The notes below the pieces were generated by a model. It saw only the letters and a program-made list of their open reading frames with translations. It was not told the origin of the DNA and searched no databases. Shown here one piece after another: positions 6,599 to 26,552 of a DNA stretch of 32,584 nt; within the stretch, counting starts at the first letter, position 1; each line of letters opens with the position of its first letter. The stretch is from Smithella sp. SCADC. GTDB lineage: Bacteria; Desulfobacterota; Syntrophia; Syntrophales; Smithellaceae. A program made the position numbers and the translations under genes. The stretch is from assembly GCA_000747625.2 (NCBI GenBank), contig JQDQ01000073.1, positions 1 to 32,584 on the forward strand, given 5' to 3'.

Positions 6599-6772
6599 TG
6601 TCAGCTTAAAGCTATCCTGAACCATCTTAGAATTTATAACCTCCATCATCAATTTAGACATTACAAAATTGTCCCTTATCTATTTTTAAACGACTTCTTT
6701 GTTGCGCTTTATTGATTCTCCTCAAGAAGCATCTTCACAGAATAATCAATATAATTAGCACATTATACATGT

Positions 6773-6788
6773 TGGCATTTATCTTGCC
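6773..6788 (+). promoter_or_regulatory. Sigma-54 (-24/-12) promoter of amtB1
   Basis: TGGCAT-TTATC-TTGCC matches the sigma-54 consensus TGGCAC-N5-TTGCW, with the invariant GG and GC correctly spaced. It lies 44 bases before the amtB1 start. It is strongly consistent with nitrogen control of amtB-glnK. I found no TGT-N10-ACA NifA site in the upstream 170 bases, so the activator could be NifA or an NtrC-type protein. Confidence 0.8.
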
Positions 6789-6831
6789 ATAATCAAAGTT
6801 GAAAGAAAACTTTTTGAAGGAGATATTGATA

Positions 6832-8064
6832 ATGAATTCGGGAGATACAGCGTGGGTTTTGATGTCCAGCGCTCTGGTCTTATTAATGACCATACCGGGA
6901 TTGGCATTTTTCTATGGAGGATTGGTTCGACGCAAGAACGTTCTGTCCATTCTGATGCAGTGCTTTATTATCGTTTGTGTCATTTCTCTGCAGTGGATGT
7001 TGATCGGTTATTCTTTGGCGTTCGGTCCTGATTTCCATGGCATCATCGGTAAACTGGATTGGATAGGACTTGCAGGAGTAGGAGCAACACCGAATCCCGA
7101 TTACGCCAAGACTATTCCTCATTCTGTCTTTATGATTTTTCAGGCGATGTTTGCTATTATCACACCAGCCTTGATTATCGGCGCTTACGCGGAGCGGGTA
7201 AAGTTTTCCGCATTTCTGGTTTTCACCTTATTGTGGACAACATTTGTCTATGATCCGCTGGCGCATTGGGTCTGGGGTGTGGGTGGTTGGATGAGGACAC
7301 TGGGCGCACTGGATTTCGCGGGTGGAATAGTTGTGCATGTGAGCTCGGGAATTTCGGCTCTGGTGCTGGCTCTATTGCTGGGCAAGAGAGTTGGTTATAA
7401 TCACCGGCCGATTCGTCCTCACAACTTGCCTTTTACAGTTTTAGGCGCGGCTCTTTTGTGGTTCGGCTGGTTTGGATTTAACGCGGGTAGCGCACTGGCT
7501 GCCGACGGTCTGGCCGCCAACGCATTTATCACTACGCATATTGCTACCGCGGCTGCCGGTCTTACCTGGACGTTGGTGGAATGGTGGCACAATGGAAGCC
7601 CGACAATCCTGGGTGCTGCAACCGGAGCTGTGGCCGGATTGGTTGCCGTTACTCCCGCCTGCGGTTTTGTCAATCCGATGAATGCCATGTTTATCGGCAT
7701 GATCGTCGCGGTGATTTGCTATCTCGCGGTGGCGATAATTAAAGGCAAACTTGGCTATGACGACTCTCTGGATGCTTTCGGCGTGCATGGTGTGGGAGGA
7801 GCTGTCGGCACAATAGCCACAGGGTTTTTCGCGGAAAAAGCCATTAATGCCGCGGGAACAGACGGCCTGCTTTTCGGCAACGCGCATCAGCTTTATGTTC
7901 AATCTTTATCGCTTTTGGTTGCGGTTTCTTTCGCTGTAATTATGACCTTCATCATCTTCAAGATAGTGGATGCGATTATAGGCATGAGGGTTGAAGAGAA
8001 AAATGAAATCGTCGGCCTGGATTTAACGCAACAAAGCGAAGCCGCTTACACCGTGATCGAATAG
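6832..8064 (+). CDS. amtB: Ammonium transporter AmtB (copy 1)
   Basis: Inner-membrane ammonium channel of 410 residues with about eleven hydrophobic segments. AFFYGGLVRRKNVLS, HWVWGVGGWM, the first pore His in GGIVVHVSSG and the second in DAFGVHGVGG are as expected. WFGWFGFNAGSAL and the C-terminal hinge GMRVEEKNEIVGLDLTQQSE, the GlnK-docking tail, are also present. I chose ATG 6832 because AAGGAG lies nine bases upstream; the ORF-track start at 6799 would add 11 residues. Unlike copy 2 it has no secretory leader. It is followed by glnK1 after 12 bases, the classical amtB-glnK pair. Confidence 0.96.
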   Translation: MNSGDTAWVLMSSALVLLMTIPGLAFFYGGLVRRKNVLSILMQCFIIVCVISLQWMLIGYSLAFGPDFHGIIGKLDWIGLAGVGATPNPDYAKTIPHSVFMIFQAMFAIITPALIIGAYAERVKFSAFLVFTLLWTTFVYDPLAHWVWGVGGWMRTLGALDFAGGIVVHVSSGISALVLALLLGKRVGYNHRPIRPHNLPFTVLGAALLWFGWFGFNAGSALAADGLAANAFITTHIATAAAGLTWTLVEWWHNGSPTILGAATGAVAGLVAVTPACGFVNPMNAMFIGMIVAVICYLAVAIIKGKLGYDDSLDAFGVHGVGGAVGTIATGFFAEKAINAAGTDGLLFGNAHQLYVQSLSLLVAVSFAVIMTFIIFKIVDAIIGMRVEEKNEIVGLDLTQQSEAAYTVIE

Positions 8065-8427: not shown

Positions 8428-8490
8428 ATGGATAATGATAAATTAAATGCTTCAGAAAATAAATTGCAGCGGTTTTTTTATGTAAGGGGT
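8428..8490 (+). pseudogene. Decayed remnant of a small NifA-type HTH gene
   Basis: The first 20 codons (MDNDKLNASENKLQRFFYVR) align without gaps to the start of the intact 73-residue HTH protein at 25331 (MDSNTLNSREKVLERCVYDC). The two have the same position, 9 bases after a glnK stop, with the same TGAGGT-atctt-ATG start context. Downstream of this point the similarity disappears. The remaining 95 codons of the listed ORF (to 8775) look like random AT-rich translation and contain no helix-turn-helix. I read this as a lost sibling of the 25331 gene, its DNA-binding part deleted or mutated beyond recognition. Confidence 0.6.
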
Positions 8491-8970
8491 TTGAAATATT
8501 TCCACTACACACTGTATAGTTTAAAGAGTTTATCGCAGCAAACGAAAGAAATTTTACGTACGTTAAGCCTCTTCTGGTGCCGGATAAAATCTACAGAGTG
8601 TATCCACACTAAGATTCTAAACGACTTTCCGGAGACTATCCTCACATTTTTGGGACAGCCAAACCTTGCCTGGTGTCATTATACGCTTTCGCCTGCCTGC
8701 GCATCAACGAAATACGGCATTCAAAAAACAAAAATTACTGACACTGGAATTAATAATAAAAAATTTTGTATTTAGTCACCGGTTACTTTATGTACTACAA
8801 TTCTGTACGGTTTTTCAATTATTCATAACGAAACAGTTCTTTAATCAGTGATGGTTCATAGGCTTTTATCATGATTACATCTTTAATTTTCATATCTTAT
8901 AATAGCAATCATCAATGGCATGAATATTGATGTTATGAAATATTTATAGTAATATGCGGCATAAGATTGA
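8491..8970. other. Gap before nifA, no gene recognised
   Basis: About 480 AT-rich bases. The open frame continuing from the remnant at 8428 has no recognisable protein character. A perfect small inverted repeat AGTGT-ATCC-ACACT occurs near 8600. A GTAC-TACAATTCT-GTAC repeat lies near 8790 and could be an operator. A poor -24/-12-like site near nifA is listed separately. Confidence 0.5.
8916..8931 (+). promoter_or_regulatory. Weak sigma-54-like site upstream of nifA
   Basis: TGGCAT-GAATA-TTGAT has the -24 box and spacing of a sigma-54 promoter, but GA instead of the invariant GC at -12. The putative nifH promoter shows the same deviation. It is 40-55 bases upstream of the nifA start. In AT-rich DNA this may be chance. 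Confidence 0.25.
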
Positions 8971-8985
8971 ATGGAGCATTTCGTT

Positions 8986-10542
8986 ATGACGTCTGACAAT
9001 GAAAGTGACAGGGTATCGCGGGAAATAAACGAGCTTTCCCTGCTTTTTGAGATAAGCAAGAAATTGAGCGAAAGCCTTGACCTTAAGGCGGCCCTGAAGT
9101 TTGTCCTGAAGAGTATGGCTGAAAACACGGAAATGCCCCGCGGCGCCCTGACGATATTGAACCGCAGCAGCGGGGAAATTATCATTGAAGAAGCCTATGG
9201 ACTTCTGCCTGAGGAACAGGCCAAAGGGAAATACCTTATAGGTGAAGGCATTACCGGCAAGGTGATTGATACGGGCGAGACAATCATTGTGCCCAGTATT
9301 TTCGATAGCCCCTTGTTTCTGGACAGGACCGGATCCAGAGAAAAATTAAATAAACGTGATATTGCGTTTATCTGTGTCCCTATAAAAATAGGCAATGAAG
9401 TAATCGGGACCATCTCTGTTGATCGTCTTGTGACCGGAGGCACATCCTTTAAAGAAGATGTCCGGCTGCTCACGATCATTGCTTCCACAATATCGCAGGC
9501 TGTTCGTCTGCGTCAATTGGCCCAGGAAGAACTCGACAAGATCAAAGAAGAAAACATCCGTCTGCATGATGAACTGAAGATTCGGTACGGTCCCAAAACC
9601 ATCATCGGCACGTCAAATATCATGCAGAACATCTATGGGTTGATTGAAACGGTCTGCCGCACAAATGCCACGGTTTTGATCCTGGGTGAAAGCGGCGTCG
9701 GCAAGGAACGCGTTGCCCATGCGATCCATTACAATTCGAGTTATGCCAGCGGTCCTTACATCATCGTCAACTGTGCGGCGCTGCCGGAGTCCCTGATCGA
9801 AAGCGAGCTTTTCGGGCATGAAAAGGGCGCTTTCACCGGAGCCACCGGGTTTCGCAAGGGACGTTTTGAACTCGCTAACAACGGCACCATCTTTCTTGAC
9901 GAAATAGGCGACATCCCTCCAGCCGTTCAGACAAAATTACTGCGCGTTCTTCAAGAGAGGATGTTCGAGCGCATCGGCGGCAATATGAGCATAAAGGTGA
10001 ACATCCGGATTATCGCCGCAACAAACAGGGATCTGGAGGCGCTCATACGGGAAGGAAAGTTCAGGGAAGATCTCTATTACAGGCTGAACATCTTCCCCAT
10101 TGTTGTTCCGCCCCTGCGGGAGCGAAGGCCGGACATCATCCTGCTGGCCAATTATTTCATCGAGAAATACGCCCGGGAACTGGACAAGAAGATAGTGAGT
10201 ATCTCCGTCCCGGCAACAGACATGCTCATGCACTATCATTGGCCGGGAAATGTCCGGGAGCTGGAAAACTGTATCGAACGGGCCGTCATTCTCTGTACAG
10301 ACGGCGTCATCAAAACCTATCATCTGCCGCCGAATCTGCAGAAGAGCGAGAACTCTCCCCTCATCGAATCGAAAGGCACCTTGCCGGATATGTTGATCTC
10401 CCTGGAAAAAGAGATGATTGCCAGCGCCTTGAAACGCTGCCGCGGTAACGTGGCCAAAGCAGCACGAATCCTGGGATTGACAGAAAGAATCATGGGTCTC
10501 CGAGTGGCAAAATTCGGGATCGATCCGAAGAAAATGAAATAG
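8986..10542 (+). CDS. nifA: NifA-type sigma-54-dependent activator (GAF, AAA+, HTH)
   Basis: Enhancer-binding activator of the nif genes. Domain order: an N-terminal GAF domain (about residues 25-180), a linker helix (EELDKIKEENIRLHDELK), a sigma-54 AAA+ domain and a C-terminal Fis-type HTH. The AAA+ domain has Walker A GESGVGKE, the sigma-54 contact loop GAFTGA, Walker B IFLDEIGD and WPGNVRELEN. The HTH is RGNVAKAARILGLTERIMGL. The ORF track starts at ATG 8971. I prefer the in-frame ATG 8986, which has GGAG nine bases upstream; 8971 has none. The Cys-x4-Cys linker motif of oxygen-sensitive NifAs is absent. No nifL is present, so the GAF domain or a PII protein probably provides nitrogen control. 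Nitrogenase genes follow directly, which supports the NifA call. Confidence 0.93.
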   Translation: MTSDNESDRVSREINELSLLFEISKKLSESLDLKAALKFVLKSMAENTEMPRGALTILNRSSGEIIIEEAYGLLPEEQAKGKYLIGEGITGKVIDTGETIIVPSIFDSPLFLDRTGSREKLNKRDIAFICVPIKIGNEVIGTISVDRLVTGGTSFKEDVRLLTIIASTISQAVRLRQLAQEELDKIKEENIRLHDELKIRYGPKTIIGTSNIMQNIYGLIETVCRTNATVLILGESGVGKERVAHAIHYNSSYASGPYIIVNCAALPESLIESELFGHEKGAFTGATGFRKGRFELANNGTIFLDEIGDIPPAVQTKLLRVLQERMFERIGGNMSIKVNIRIIAATNRDLEALIREGKFREDLYYRLNIFPIVVPPLRERRPDIILLANYFIEKYARELDKKIVSISVPATDMLMHYHWPGNVRELENCIERAVILCTDGVIKTYHLPPNLQKSENSPLIESKGTLPDMLISLEKEMIASALKRCRGNVAKAARILGLTERIMGLRVAKFGIDPKKMK

Positions 10543-23124: not shown

Positions 23125-23431
23125 AGTGGAAGATGTGTGGTGGTCCCTGTCTTTGATGATTGCCGTCGAAGCATCGATATTCCTACATATCTGAAGGTTA
23201 AGACTTTATATTTGAACTATTTTGTCATTTATTTATCTGTTTTTATCATCCCCTGAGAACCGTAATTCAATTATTTTACTTTTCATCATAATCACTTACG
23301 ACCTTTTACCGGGCCAAATCCAGACAATGGCACGAAGTATGCCTTATCAAAAGACAATGATATTTAAGTTCGAGAAGGCCTTCCCGGATCAAAATATTTA
23401 CAGGTAAAATCTATTCTATTGGAGGTGTGCA
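23125..23431. other. Intergenic region before amtB2
   Basis: 307 AT-rich bases with no gene. The listed ORF at 23222-23407 has no protein-like character. The only clear signal is the -24/-12 promoter at 23328-23343. No TGT-N10-ACA site was found upstream of it by eye. Confidence 0.6.
23328..23343 (+). promoter_or_regulatory. Sigma-54 (-24/-12) promoter of the amtB2 operon
   Basis: TGGCAC-GAAGT-ATGCC has a perfect -24 box and the invariant GC at -12 with correct spacing. It lies 88 bases before the amtB2 start. Together with the amtB1 site it puts both ammonium-transporter units under apparent sigma-54 control. Confidence 0.75.
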
Positions 23432-24934
23432 ATGAAAAAATTAAGTAGCATATTCTTTATTCTGATCGGATTGCTTCTGATCGCAAGCATGCCGGTCTTG
23501 GCGGAGGAAGCTGTTCAGGGCCAGCCGGCGGCGACAGCCGTCACAACAGCAGCTCCGGTCGCTCCGGCGGTGGCAGCCGTCCCAACAGCCGCGCCGGAGA
23601 AAAGTGTTGTGCAGCAGGCACTGGATACAGTCAAAAACCTGCAAGTCGGTATTGATACCACATGGGTTCTCATCACCGCTTTTCTGGTCTTTTTTATGAA
23701 CCTGGGTTTTGCCATGGTGGAATCAGGATTATGCCGGGCAAAAAACACGGTGAACATTCTGGCGAAGAATTTCATTGTCTTTGCCATTGCCTCTGCGGCC
23801 TTTTGGGTGATCGGGTGGGGATTAATGTTTGGAAATGGCAACCCTTTCGTTGGGCTTGAAGGACTTCTGTTCGCCAGCGGCGCCGACAACAGTCCCGCCA
23901 TCGGCGACGCATACAAGGGCGTCTATGCCGCGATCAACTGGACCGGCGTGCCAATGTGGGCGAAATTTTTCTTCCAGCTCGTCTTCGCCGGAACTGCGGC
24001 AACCATTGTGTCGGGTGCCGTTGCGGAACGCATCAAATTTGTTTCATTCATCGTCTTTTCTTTCTTCCTGGTGGGTATATTGTATCCTATAACCGGTCAC
24101 TGGATCTGGGGTGGCGGATTCCTTGTTTCCCTTGGTATGTTTGACTTTGCCGGCTCCACAGTTGTTCATTCCGTCGGCGGCTGGGCAGCGCTTGCAGGCG
24201 TGTTGATGCTGGGAGCTCGCTACGGTAAGTATCGCGCAGACGGATCTGTCAGGCCGATCTTCGGTCATAATATGTCAACGGCCACCCTCGGGGCATTTGT
24301 CCTCTGGTTCGGCTGGTTCGGATTCAATCCTGGTTCCACGATGGGTGTGGGTGACGGTAGTGCCATTGCTCATATCGCAGTGACCACTAACACCGCCGCT
24401 GCCATGGCGATCCTCAGTTCGACGGTCGTCTCCTGGTTGATTCAGAAAAAGCCGGATCTCTCCATGATCCTCAATGGCGCTCTGGCAGGTCTTGTGGCCA
24501 TTACGGCCCCCTGTGCTTTTGTCAGTGTCGGATCATCTGCGATAATCGGCCTGATTGCCGGAGTGCTTGTAGTTCTGGCGGTCATGATGTTCGACAGACT
24601 TAAAATCGACGATCCCGTTGGCGCTCTTTCGGTTCACTTGGTCAATGGGATCTGGGGAACTTTGGCGGTCGGTCTTTTCGCCGTGGACAAAATCACTGGA
24701 ACTGCCACTGGAAATGGCCTTTTCTCCGGCGGCGGTTTCAAGCTTCTCGGCGCACAGGCTACCGGTGTCGTGGCCGTTGGCGCCTTTACATTAATCGCGT
24801 CGTTGGTGATCTGGTACATCATTAAACTGGCATTGGGTATGAGGGTGTCGCGGGAGGAAGAAATCGCAGGCTTGGATCTCGGCGAACACGGTTCTAAGGC
24901 TTATCCTGATTTCCAGGGATTCCTGACGAAATAA
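23432..24934 (+). CDS. amtB: Ammonium transporter AmtB (copy 2) with secretory leader
   Basis: 500-residue Amt protein. It opens with a signal peptide (KKLSSIFFILIGLLLIASMP, cleavage probably after VLA) and an Ala/Pro-rich linker, which copy 1 lacks; such leaders are known in other Amt proteins. The channel part has DTTWVLITAFLVFFMNLGFA, HWIWGGGFL, the pore His in GSTVVHSVGG and the second in GALSVHLVNGIWG, WFGWFGFNPGST and the GlnK-binding tail GMRVSREEEIAGLDLGEHG. It begins after TTGGAGG. glnK2 follows after 45 bases. It heads a four-gene unit: amtB2, glnK2, a small HTH gene and a beta-barrel gene. Confidence 0.95.
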   Translation: MKKLSSIFFILIGLLLIASMPVLAEEAVQGQPAATAVTTAAPVAPAVAAVPTAAPEKSVVQQALDTVKNLQVGIDTTWVLITAFLVFFMNLGFAMVESGLCRAKNTVNILAKNFIVFAIASAAFWVIGWGLMFGNGNPFVGLEGLLFASGADNSPAIGDAYKGVYAAINWTGVPMWAKFFFQLVFAGTAATIVSGAVAERIKFVSFIVFSFFLVGILYPITGHWIWGGGFLVSLGMFDFAGSTVVHSVGGWAALAGVLMLGARYGKYRADGSVRPIFGHNMSTATLGAFVLWFGWFGFNPGSTMGVGDGSAIAHIAVTTNTAAAMAILSSTVVSWLIQKKPDLSMILNGALAGLVAITAPCAFVSVGSSAIIGLIAGVLVVLAVMMFDRLKIDDPVGALSVHLVNGIWGTLAVGLFAVDKITGTATGNGLFSGGGFKLLGAQATGVVAVGAFTLIASLVIWYIIKLALGMRVSREEEIAGLDLGEHGSKAYPDFQGFLTK

Positions 24935-24979
24935 GAACCATCGTCGTCAAGACCCAATTTCTAAAAAAGGAGAATGATT

Positions 24980-25321
24980 ATGAAACTTATTATAGCAATA
25001 GTACAACCGGAGAAACTGACAGATGTCAAGCAGGCGCTTTCCGAAGCGAAGGTGGGGAAAATGACCGTGTCCAATGTTATCGGCTGCGGGTCTCAAGGTG
25101 GATACACAGAATCATATCGAGGGGCATTTACCGACGTCAACCTTTTGGACAAGGTCCGCTTCGAAATTGTCGTGAACGACAATTTCGTCAAACCAACCGT
25201 GGACGCCATTATCAAAGGTGCCCGATCTGGAAAAATCGGAGATGGCAAAATCTTTGTTGTGCCCCTTGAGGAGTGCATTCGGGTGCGCACGGGCGAAACA
25301 GGGAACATTGCCGTTGGCTGA
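24980..25321 (+). CDS. glnK: PII signalling protein GlnK (copy 2), lacks Tyr51
   Basis: 113-residue PII protein, the presumed gate of AmtB2. [40 protein letters not shown] and [23 protein letters not shown] show the fold and nucleotide site. The T-loop is odd: Arg38 and Lys40 of the enteric protein are Ser and Gly, and position 51 is Thr, so Tyr uridylylation is excluded at that place. Of two in-frame ATGs I chose 24980, since AGGAG is seven bases away; 24974 would be too close to it. The end overlaps the GAGG start signal of the next gene. Confidence 0.94.
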
Positions 25322-25330
25322 GGTTATCTT

Positions 25331-25552
25331 ATGGATAGCAATACATTAAATAGCAGAGAGAAGGTGCTGGAACGTTGCGTTTATGACTGCGAAAAAACAG
25401 TCATCCGGCATGCATTGACTAGGACAAGAGGCAATCAAGCAGCAGCAGCCAGAATTTTAGGAACTACAAAACGCATTCTGGCATACAAGGTCCATAAATA
25501 CGGGATTGATTGTGAAGAATTCAAACATGGATGGAGTGTAAAGGAGAATTAA
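25331..25552 (+). CDS. Stand-alone NifA-type helix-turn-helix protein
   Basis: A 73-residue protein consisting almost only of a Fis/NifA-type DNA-binding domain: CEKTVIRHALTRTRGNQAAA then RILGTTKRILAYKVHKYGID. Hand alignment with the C-terminus of the NifA in this window (LEKEMIASALKRCRGN... to GIDPKKMK) gives 25 identities over 46 positions without gaps. There is no AAA+ or sensor domain, so it cannot activate sigma-54. It could repress, compete with NifA at its sites, or act as a Fis-like architectural factor. GAGG inside the glnK2 stop region precedes the ATG by seven bases, so it is translated with glnK2. A decayed homologue sits at the equivalent place after glnK1. I know no named family member; the function is inferred. 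Confidence 0.85.
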   Translation: MDSNTLNSREKVLERCVYDCEKTVIRHALTRTRGNQAAAARILGTTKRILAYKVHKYGIDCEEFKHGWSVKEN

Positions 25553-26452: not shown

Positions 26453-26509
26453 GTAGGGCGGTGTGTTTGGGAAAGGGAAATGACCTGAAGGTCACACGGC
26501 GTGCCCTAC
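26453..26509. repeat. Nested inverted repeat after the beta-barrel gene
   Basis: GTAGGGC pairs with GCCCTAC at the ends, GTGTG with CACAC further in, and TGACCT-GA-AGGTCA forms a tight inner hairpin. It resembles the short mobile palindromic repeats of this kind of genome and begins right after the stop codon. It could also act as a transcription stop or mRNA 3' stabiliser. Confidence 0.55.
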
Positions 26510-26552
26510 ATAATTGTAGAGGCTGTTCCCTGAACAGTCCGAAATTTTTAAA

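Follow-up and report, generated by a model that had tools for sequence, protein, structure and literature searches.

The amtB2-glnK2 operon of Smithella sp. SCADC encodes a 73-residue protein that we read as a paralogue, confined to DNA binding, of the activator of nitrogen assimilation in these bacteria, one that would compete for the sites of that activator and so act as a feedback damper; we give this reading a probability of about 0.5. The protein is a member of a family of small proteins of the DNA-binding type that Syntrophales-type bacteria encode in operons for ammonium uptake and for glutamate/glutamine synthesis. The DNA analyzed (the window) was a stretch of 32,584 nucleotides, contig JQDQ01000073.1. 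The gene, its neighbors and two other loci of the window are as follows.

23432..24934, + strand: amtB2, ammonium transporter
24974..25321, + strand: glnK2, P-II protein, immediately upstream of the HTH gene
25320..25323, + strand: GAGG ribosome-binding site of the HTH gene, overlapping the glnK2 stop codon
25331..25552, + strand: stand-alone HTH_8 protein gene, ATG start, 73 residues
25558..26451, + strand: torF-like outer-membrane protein gene, 3' of the HTH gene, with a weak Pfam Gcw_chp match
8428..8472, + strand: remnant (5' end) of another copy of the HTH gene, directly after glnK1, MDNDKLNASENKLQR..
8971..10542, + strand: gene of a NifA-like GAF-AAA+-HTH activator with a GAFTGA motif, TIGR01817 score 517.6 bits, just below the cut-off of 528.85

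The four genes amtB2-glnK2-HTH-torF form a tight unit. Only 9 bp lie between the glnK2 stop codon and the ATG of the HTH gene, and with the GAGG overlapping that stop codon the translational coupling to glnK2 proposed in an earlier, sequence-only reading is plausible. The ribosome-binding site of the torF-like gene (AGGAG, 25542-25546) is in turn located inside the end of the HTH gene. The torF-like product, also termed a porin, matched Pfam Gcw_chp below its cut-off (E 2e-4), and torF is the commonest gene to follow amt-linked HTH genes.

Residues 19-57 of the 73-residue protein matched Pfam HTH_8 (E 3.8e-9, 36.6 bits against a cut-off of 22), and profile searches detected neither a second Pfam family above its cut-off nor an AAA+ domain. 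The open reading frame and its description as a stand-alone Fis/EBP-type helix-turn-helix without an AAA+ domain were thus confirmed, and the reported 25 identities in 46 positions with the NifA of the window proved exact (ungapped comparison, residues 20-65). The Fis equivalog model gave 23.5 bits against a cut-off of 99 and the NifA model TIGR01817 gave 23.5 bits against 528.85; having an HTH but no GAF or AAA+ domain, the protein is assigned to neither. Orthologues at 60-75% identity are present in many genomes and pN/pS was 0.06-0.37 over 13 orthologue pairs, mostly 0.1-0.25; hence the reading frame is more than a chance one, and it is under purifying selection. That selection in the main refutes the notion of a functionless, decaying fragment of an EBP gene. 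Such a fragment would account for the scattered presence of the family and for the truncated copy after glnK1, but start context and operon position are conserved and some genomes carry several intact copies, so that we consider decay highly improbable.

An AlphaFold2 model built on a 22-row alignment, which replaced a weak single-sequence model, had block-mean pLDDT values of 92-98 over residues 11-60. The modelled protein consists of a long helix (residues 5-31) followed by the HTH helices (36-43 and 47-57), and its top PDB matches were the EBP DNA-binding domain 2m8g and Fis. In the model the long helix preceding the HTH appears suited to dimer formation.

To place the gene in its family we collected 41 stand-alone relatives from a whole-genome collection of the order, the loci being picked by sequence similarity rather than by context. 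Thirty-one lie directly after glnK, six directly before glutamate synthase-glnA (in five cases next to an upstream gene for the GAF activator) and two after a sigma-54 response regulator; one of the remaining genes is cut by an upstream contig end and the other has no recognized nitrogen neighbor. Repeated adjacency to amtB-glnK, as the sequence-only reading expected, is therefore borne out. Its restriction to nif-bearing genomes is not: amt-linked copies were present in 14 of 60 sampled relatives, and just two of these 14 contain nifD; across the order nifD was found in 9/155 genomes. Copies beside nif genes were seen only in the source genome and in G009. Occurrence without nif genes was named in that reading as evidence against it; the proposed link to NifA and nif is not supported, and the stand-alone HTH genes are tied to nitrogen assimilation, not fixation.

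The nearest activator also points away from NifA. A GAF-AAA+-HTH activator of about 520 residues is encoded by most of the order's sampled genomes and by many in the phylum, the HTH of which was the best full-length match to the 73-residue protein by profile score in both order and phylum. The activator gene is located directly upstream of gltS or of HTH-gltS at a number of loci (L078, L137, L141-L143, L145, L146 and L151). The recognition helix of the 73-residue protein shares 8/13 positions with the GAF activator of its own genome versus 5/13 with the window NifA, and over positions 45-60 the 62 EBP rows matched it at a mean of 11.3/16 positions, nif-linked NifA proteins at 7.3/16. The sequences themselves are GTTKRIIQYK in the GAF activator, GTTKRILAYK in the stand-alone protein and GLTERIMGLR in nif-linked NifA, and the helix is strongly conserved in most family members. 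On a 65-column HTH tree the stand-alone copies fell outside the NifA clade, but the AU test on this tree rejected neither their grouping with NifA (p 0.24) nor a single stand-alone clade. Taken together, we favor descent of the 73-residue protein from the DNA-binding end of the GAF-AAA+-HTH activator, judged from sequence comparison. The HTH gene has apparently split off from that end of a nitrogen activator, and therefore the stand-alone HTH probably adjusts the action of that activator and is not dedicated to the genes of nitrogen fixation.

A gapped-palindrome search of amtB upstream regions gave ACA-N4-TGT in 20/22, where 1.0 was expected. In the form ACA[AT]4TGT the motif was present upstream of 36/43 amtB, 10/11 gltS and 10/13 activator genes, compared with 0/37 for control genes of other kinds and 172/2840 for windows taken at random. 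Its distance to the sigma-54 element, measured start to start, clusters at 77-81 and 107-110 bp, and neighboring operators are spaced 29-31 bp apart in 12/21 cases. The motif is informative by position alone, as WACAAWWTTGT occurs 16 times genome-wide versus 26 times for a reversed-pattern control. The corresponding elements of the window are as follows.

6663..6672, + strand: operator ACAAAATTGT, a perfect copy upstream of amtB1, at 110 bp from the sigma-54 element that follows
6773..6787, + strand: sigma-54 promoter element TGGCATTTATCTTGC of amtB1-glnK1
8797..8806, + strand: operator-like, near-consensus ACAATTCTGT upstream of nifA, 119 bp before the sigma-54-like element
8916..8930, + strand: sigma-54-like element TGGCATGAATATTGA of nifA
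23216-23225, + strand: degenerate operator ACTATTTTGT, the only one upstream of amtB2
23328..23342, + strand: imperfect sigma-54-like element TGGCACGAAGTATGC of amtB2

As the operator is equally present in genomes that lack the stand-alone protein, it marks the activator and not that protein. From its position and the regulon we infer that the GAF activator binds ACA-[AT]4-TGT, through which it very likely drives the sigma-54 promoters of amtB-glnK, gltS-glnA and its own gene. The nifA gene is probably another of its targets through this operator; the site before nifA is conserved in two relatives. The classic NifA site TGT-N10-ACA gave only scattered matches upstream of amtB, nifH and nifA. 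Two further observations concern these regions. An operator-like TACATAATTGT is present at 26507-26517, in the interval that separates torF from the PtsP gene. At 6799-6832, the TTG given as the start of amtB1 is very close to the sigma-54 element, which starts at -26, so translation of amtB1 probably begins at a later ATG.

These data bear on whether the 73-residue protein could instead be an anti-activator that competes specifically with NifA at nif promoters. The 25/46 identity, the nearly equal overall search scores of NifA and the GAF activator in own-genome searches, the adjoining nif genes here and in G009 and the operator-like site before nifA would all be in keeping with this. However, most carriers have no nifD, the NifA recognition helix is the poorer match, and nifH upstream DNA conserved between two genomes contains no ACA[AT]4TGT operator. 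The nif link itself looks secondary. In G014 a pair of glnK-HTH units stands close together and nif is absent, G009 has its nif cluster between two such units, and in the window the remnant after glnK1 retains 15 codons with the start context of the intact copy, the remainder having been replaced by unrelated sequence. Given these three arrangements, the nif cluster probably entered a pre-existing nitrogen-uptake array. The protein resembles the NifA C-terminal domain in identity but differs from it in recognition helix, in operator context and in the lack of nif linkage of the stand-alone genes. We regard competition specific to NifA as distinctly unlikely; an effect on nif would more likely be indirect, via nifA expression.

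Another alternative is an architectural co-activator like Fis, which would bind the same or neighboring sites, bend the DNA and help the activator in a positive feedback. The modelled fold matches Fis, and the regular pairing of sites ahead of sigma-54 promoters, at intervals of 29-31 bp, would suit such a role, but the protein is without a large share of the N-terminal region of Fis (98 residues) and amtB promoters keep the same site geometry in genomes without the HTH protein. We consider this role rather improbable.

Competition with the GAF activator, the reading that we prefer, would proceed as follows. With its near-identical recognition helix the 73-residue protein would recognize the same sites as the activator, and having no ATPase could occupy them without activating sigma-54. 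Nitrogen limitation would turn on the sigma-54/EBP-type operon, the small HTH protein would build up, and the accumulated protein would damp activator-driven transcription. Negative feedback is likely because the protein is encoded in operons of this type. Site occupancy is physically reasonable: for NifA, the DNA-binding domain on its own can bind the enhancer site, and EBP domains with the preceding helix A dimerize (PMC10590331). We infer both operator binding by the 73-residue protein and its competition with the activator. Against a damper in the source window, the sole operator of its amtB2 operon is degenerate and the sigma-54 element there is imperfect. The suggestion of an anti-activator or co-regulator is therefore retained in part: the protein is a detached EBP-type domain without an activation domain and the mechanism is plausible, but specificity for NifA and nif is not upheld.

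One clade (G001, G004 and G015) has diverged recognition helices (KESSLKEK, KESFLADK and NERALADK) while operator and activator are kept; hence site competition is not the whole function there, and these proteins may function by protein contact. Protein contact could be the general mode of action, by mixed dimers with the DNA-binding domain of the activator or by GlnK binding instead of DNA occupancy. The G001/G004/G015 clade retains the N-terminal helix and the cysteines of the family, the HTH gene directly follows glnK, and paralogous EBPs interact in Azotobacter (PMC9542535). The strong conservation of the recognition helix in most members argues against it, and we hold it to be a doubtful explanation for the family.

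The cysteines are C16, C20 and C61, present in 21, 21 and 20, respectively, of 24 lineage-A stand-alone sequences; cysteine was found in 0/62 activator HTHs. On the long N-terminal helix a single turn separates C16 from C20, and C61 is just after the recognition helix. Given their presence here and absence from activator HTHs, redox- or metal-responsive DNA occupancy is conceivable in these anaerobes, and the family could be thiol- or metal-gated DNA-binding anti-activators of the sigma-54 nitrogen regulon, a proposal that we make only tentatively and with low expectation.

Like Fis, the 73-residue protein is small, with a C-terminal HTH_8 and, in the model, the same fold. Unlike Fis, it has 73 rather than 98 residues and is far below the Fis equivalog cut-off, its HTH is closer to those of GAF-type EBPs, and its context is operon-specific and nitrogen-related. 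With the Desulfobacterota GAF-AAA+-HTH activators (G000:C177 type) it shares the GTTKRI recognition helix and the regulon context; it differs in having no GAF or AAA+ domain, and so cannot activate sigma-54, and in the three cysteines of most of its close relatives. The family is of a Fis-like, EBP-derived kind. An NtrC-type domain has been put forward as the ancestor of Fis. If the damper reading is true, sigma-54 nitrogen control in these bacteria has a built-in damper derived from a detached activator DNA-binding domain, an origin comparable to that proposed for Fis. With its constant geometry, the predicted operator provides a directly testable map of a nitrogen-assimilation regulon in largely uncultured syntrophic bacteria.

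A possible counterpart of the GAF activator is Desulfovibrio vulgaris DVU1949, described as a one-component EBP, predicted to be autoregulated, with a nine-operon regulon of nitrogen metabolism and transport (PMC4641369); the passages on that regulon make no mention of a stand-alone partner. In Geobacter sigma-54 is reported to control glnB-glnA, and a sigma-54 promoter is predicted before glutamate synthase (PMC2725144). Open-licence papers, searched for stand-alone EBP domains next to amtB-glnK and for torF with amtB, contained no account of this family or of a stand-alone HTH partner.

Several loci of the relatives have unusual arrangements. In G026 (a 93% complete assembly in which nifD was not detected) a gene encoding a NifA orthologue 87.5% identical to that of the window (L068, 8363-9937) is located beside amtB-glnK-HTH-torF. 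At L014 (5959-6771) an HTH of the 73-residue family is fused to a DUF1828 domain after amtB-glnK, and an amino acid permease with a C-terminal P-II domain is encoded upstream of glnK-HTH in G014 (L009, 3711-5591) and, similarly, in G009 (L066).
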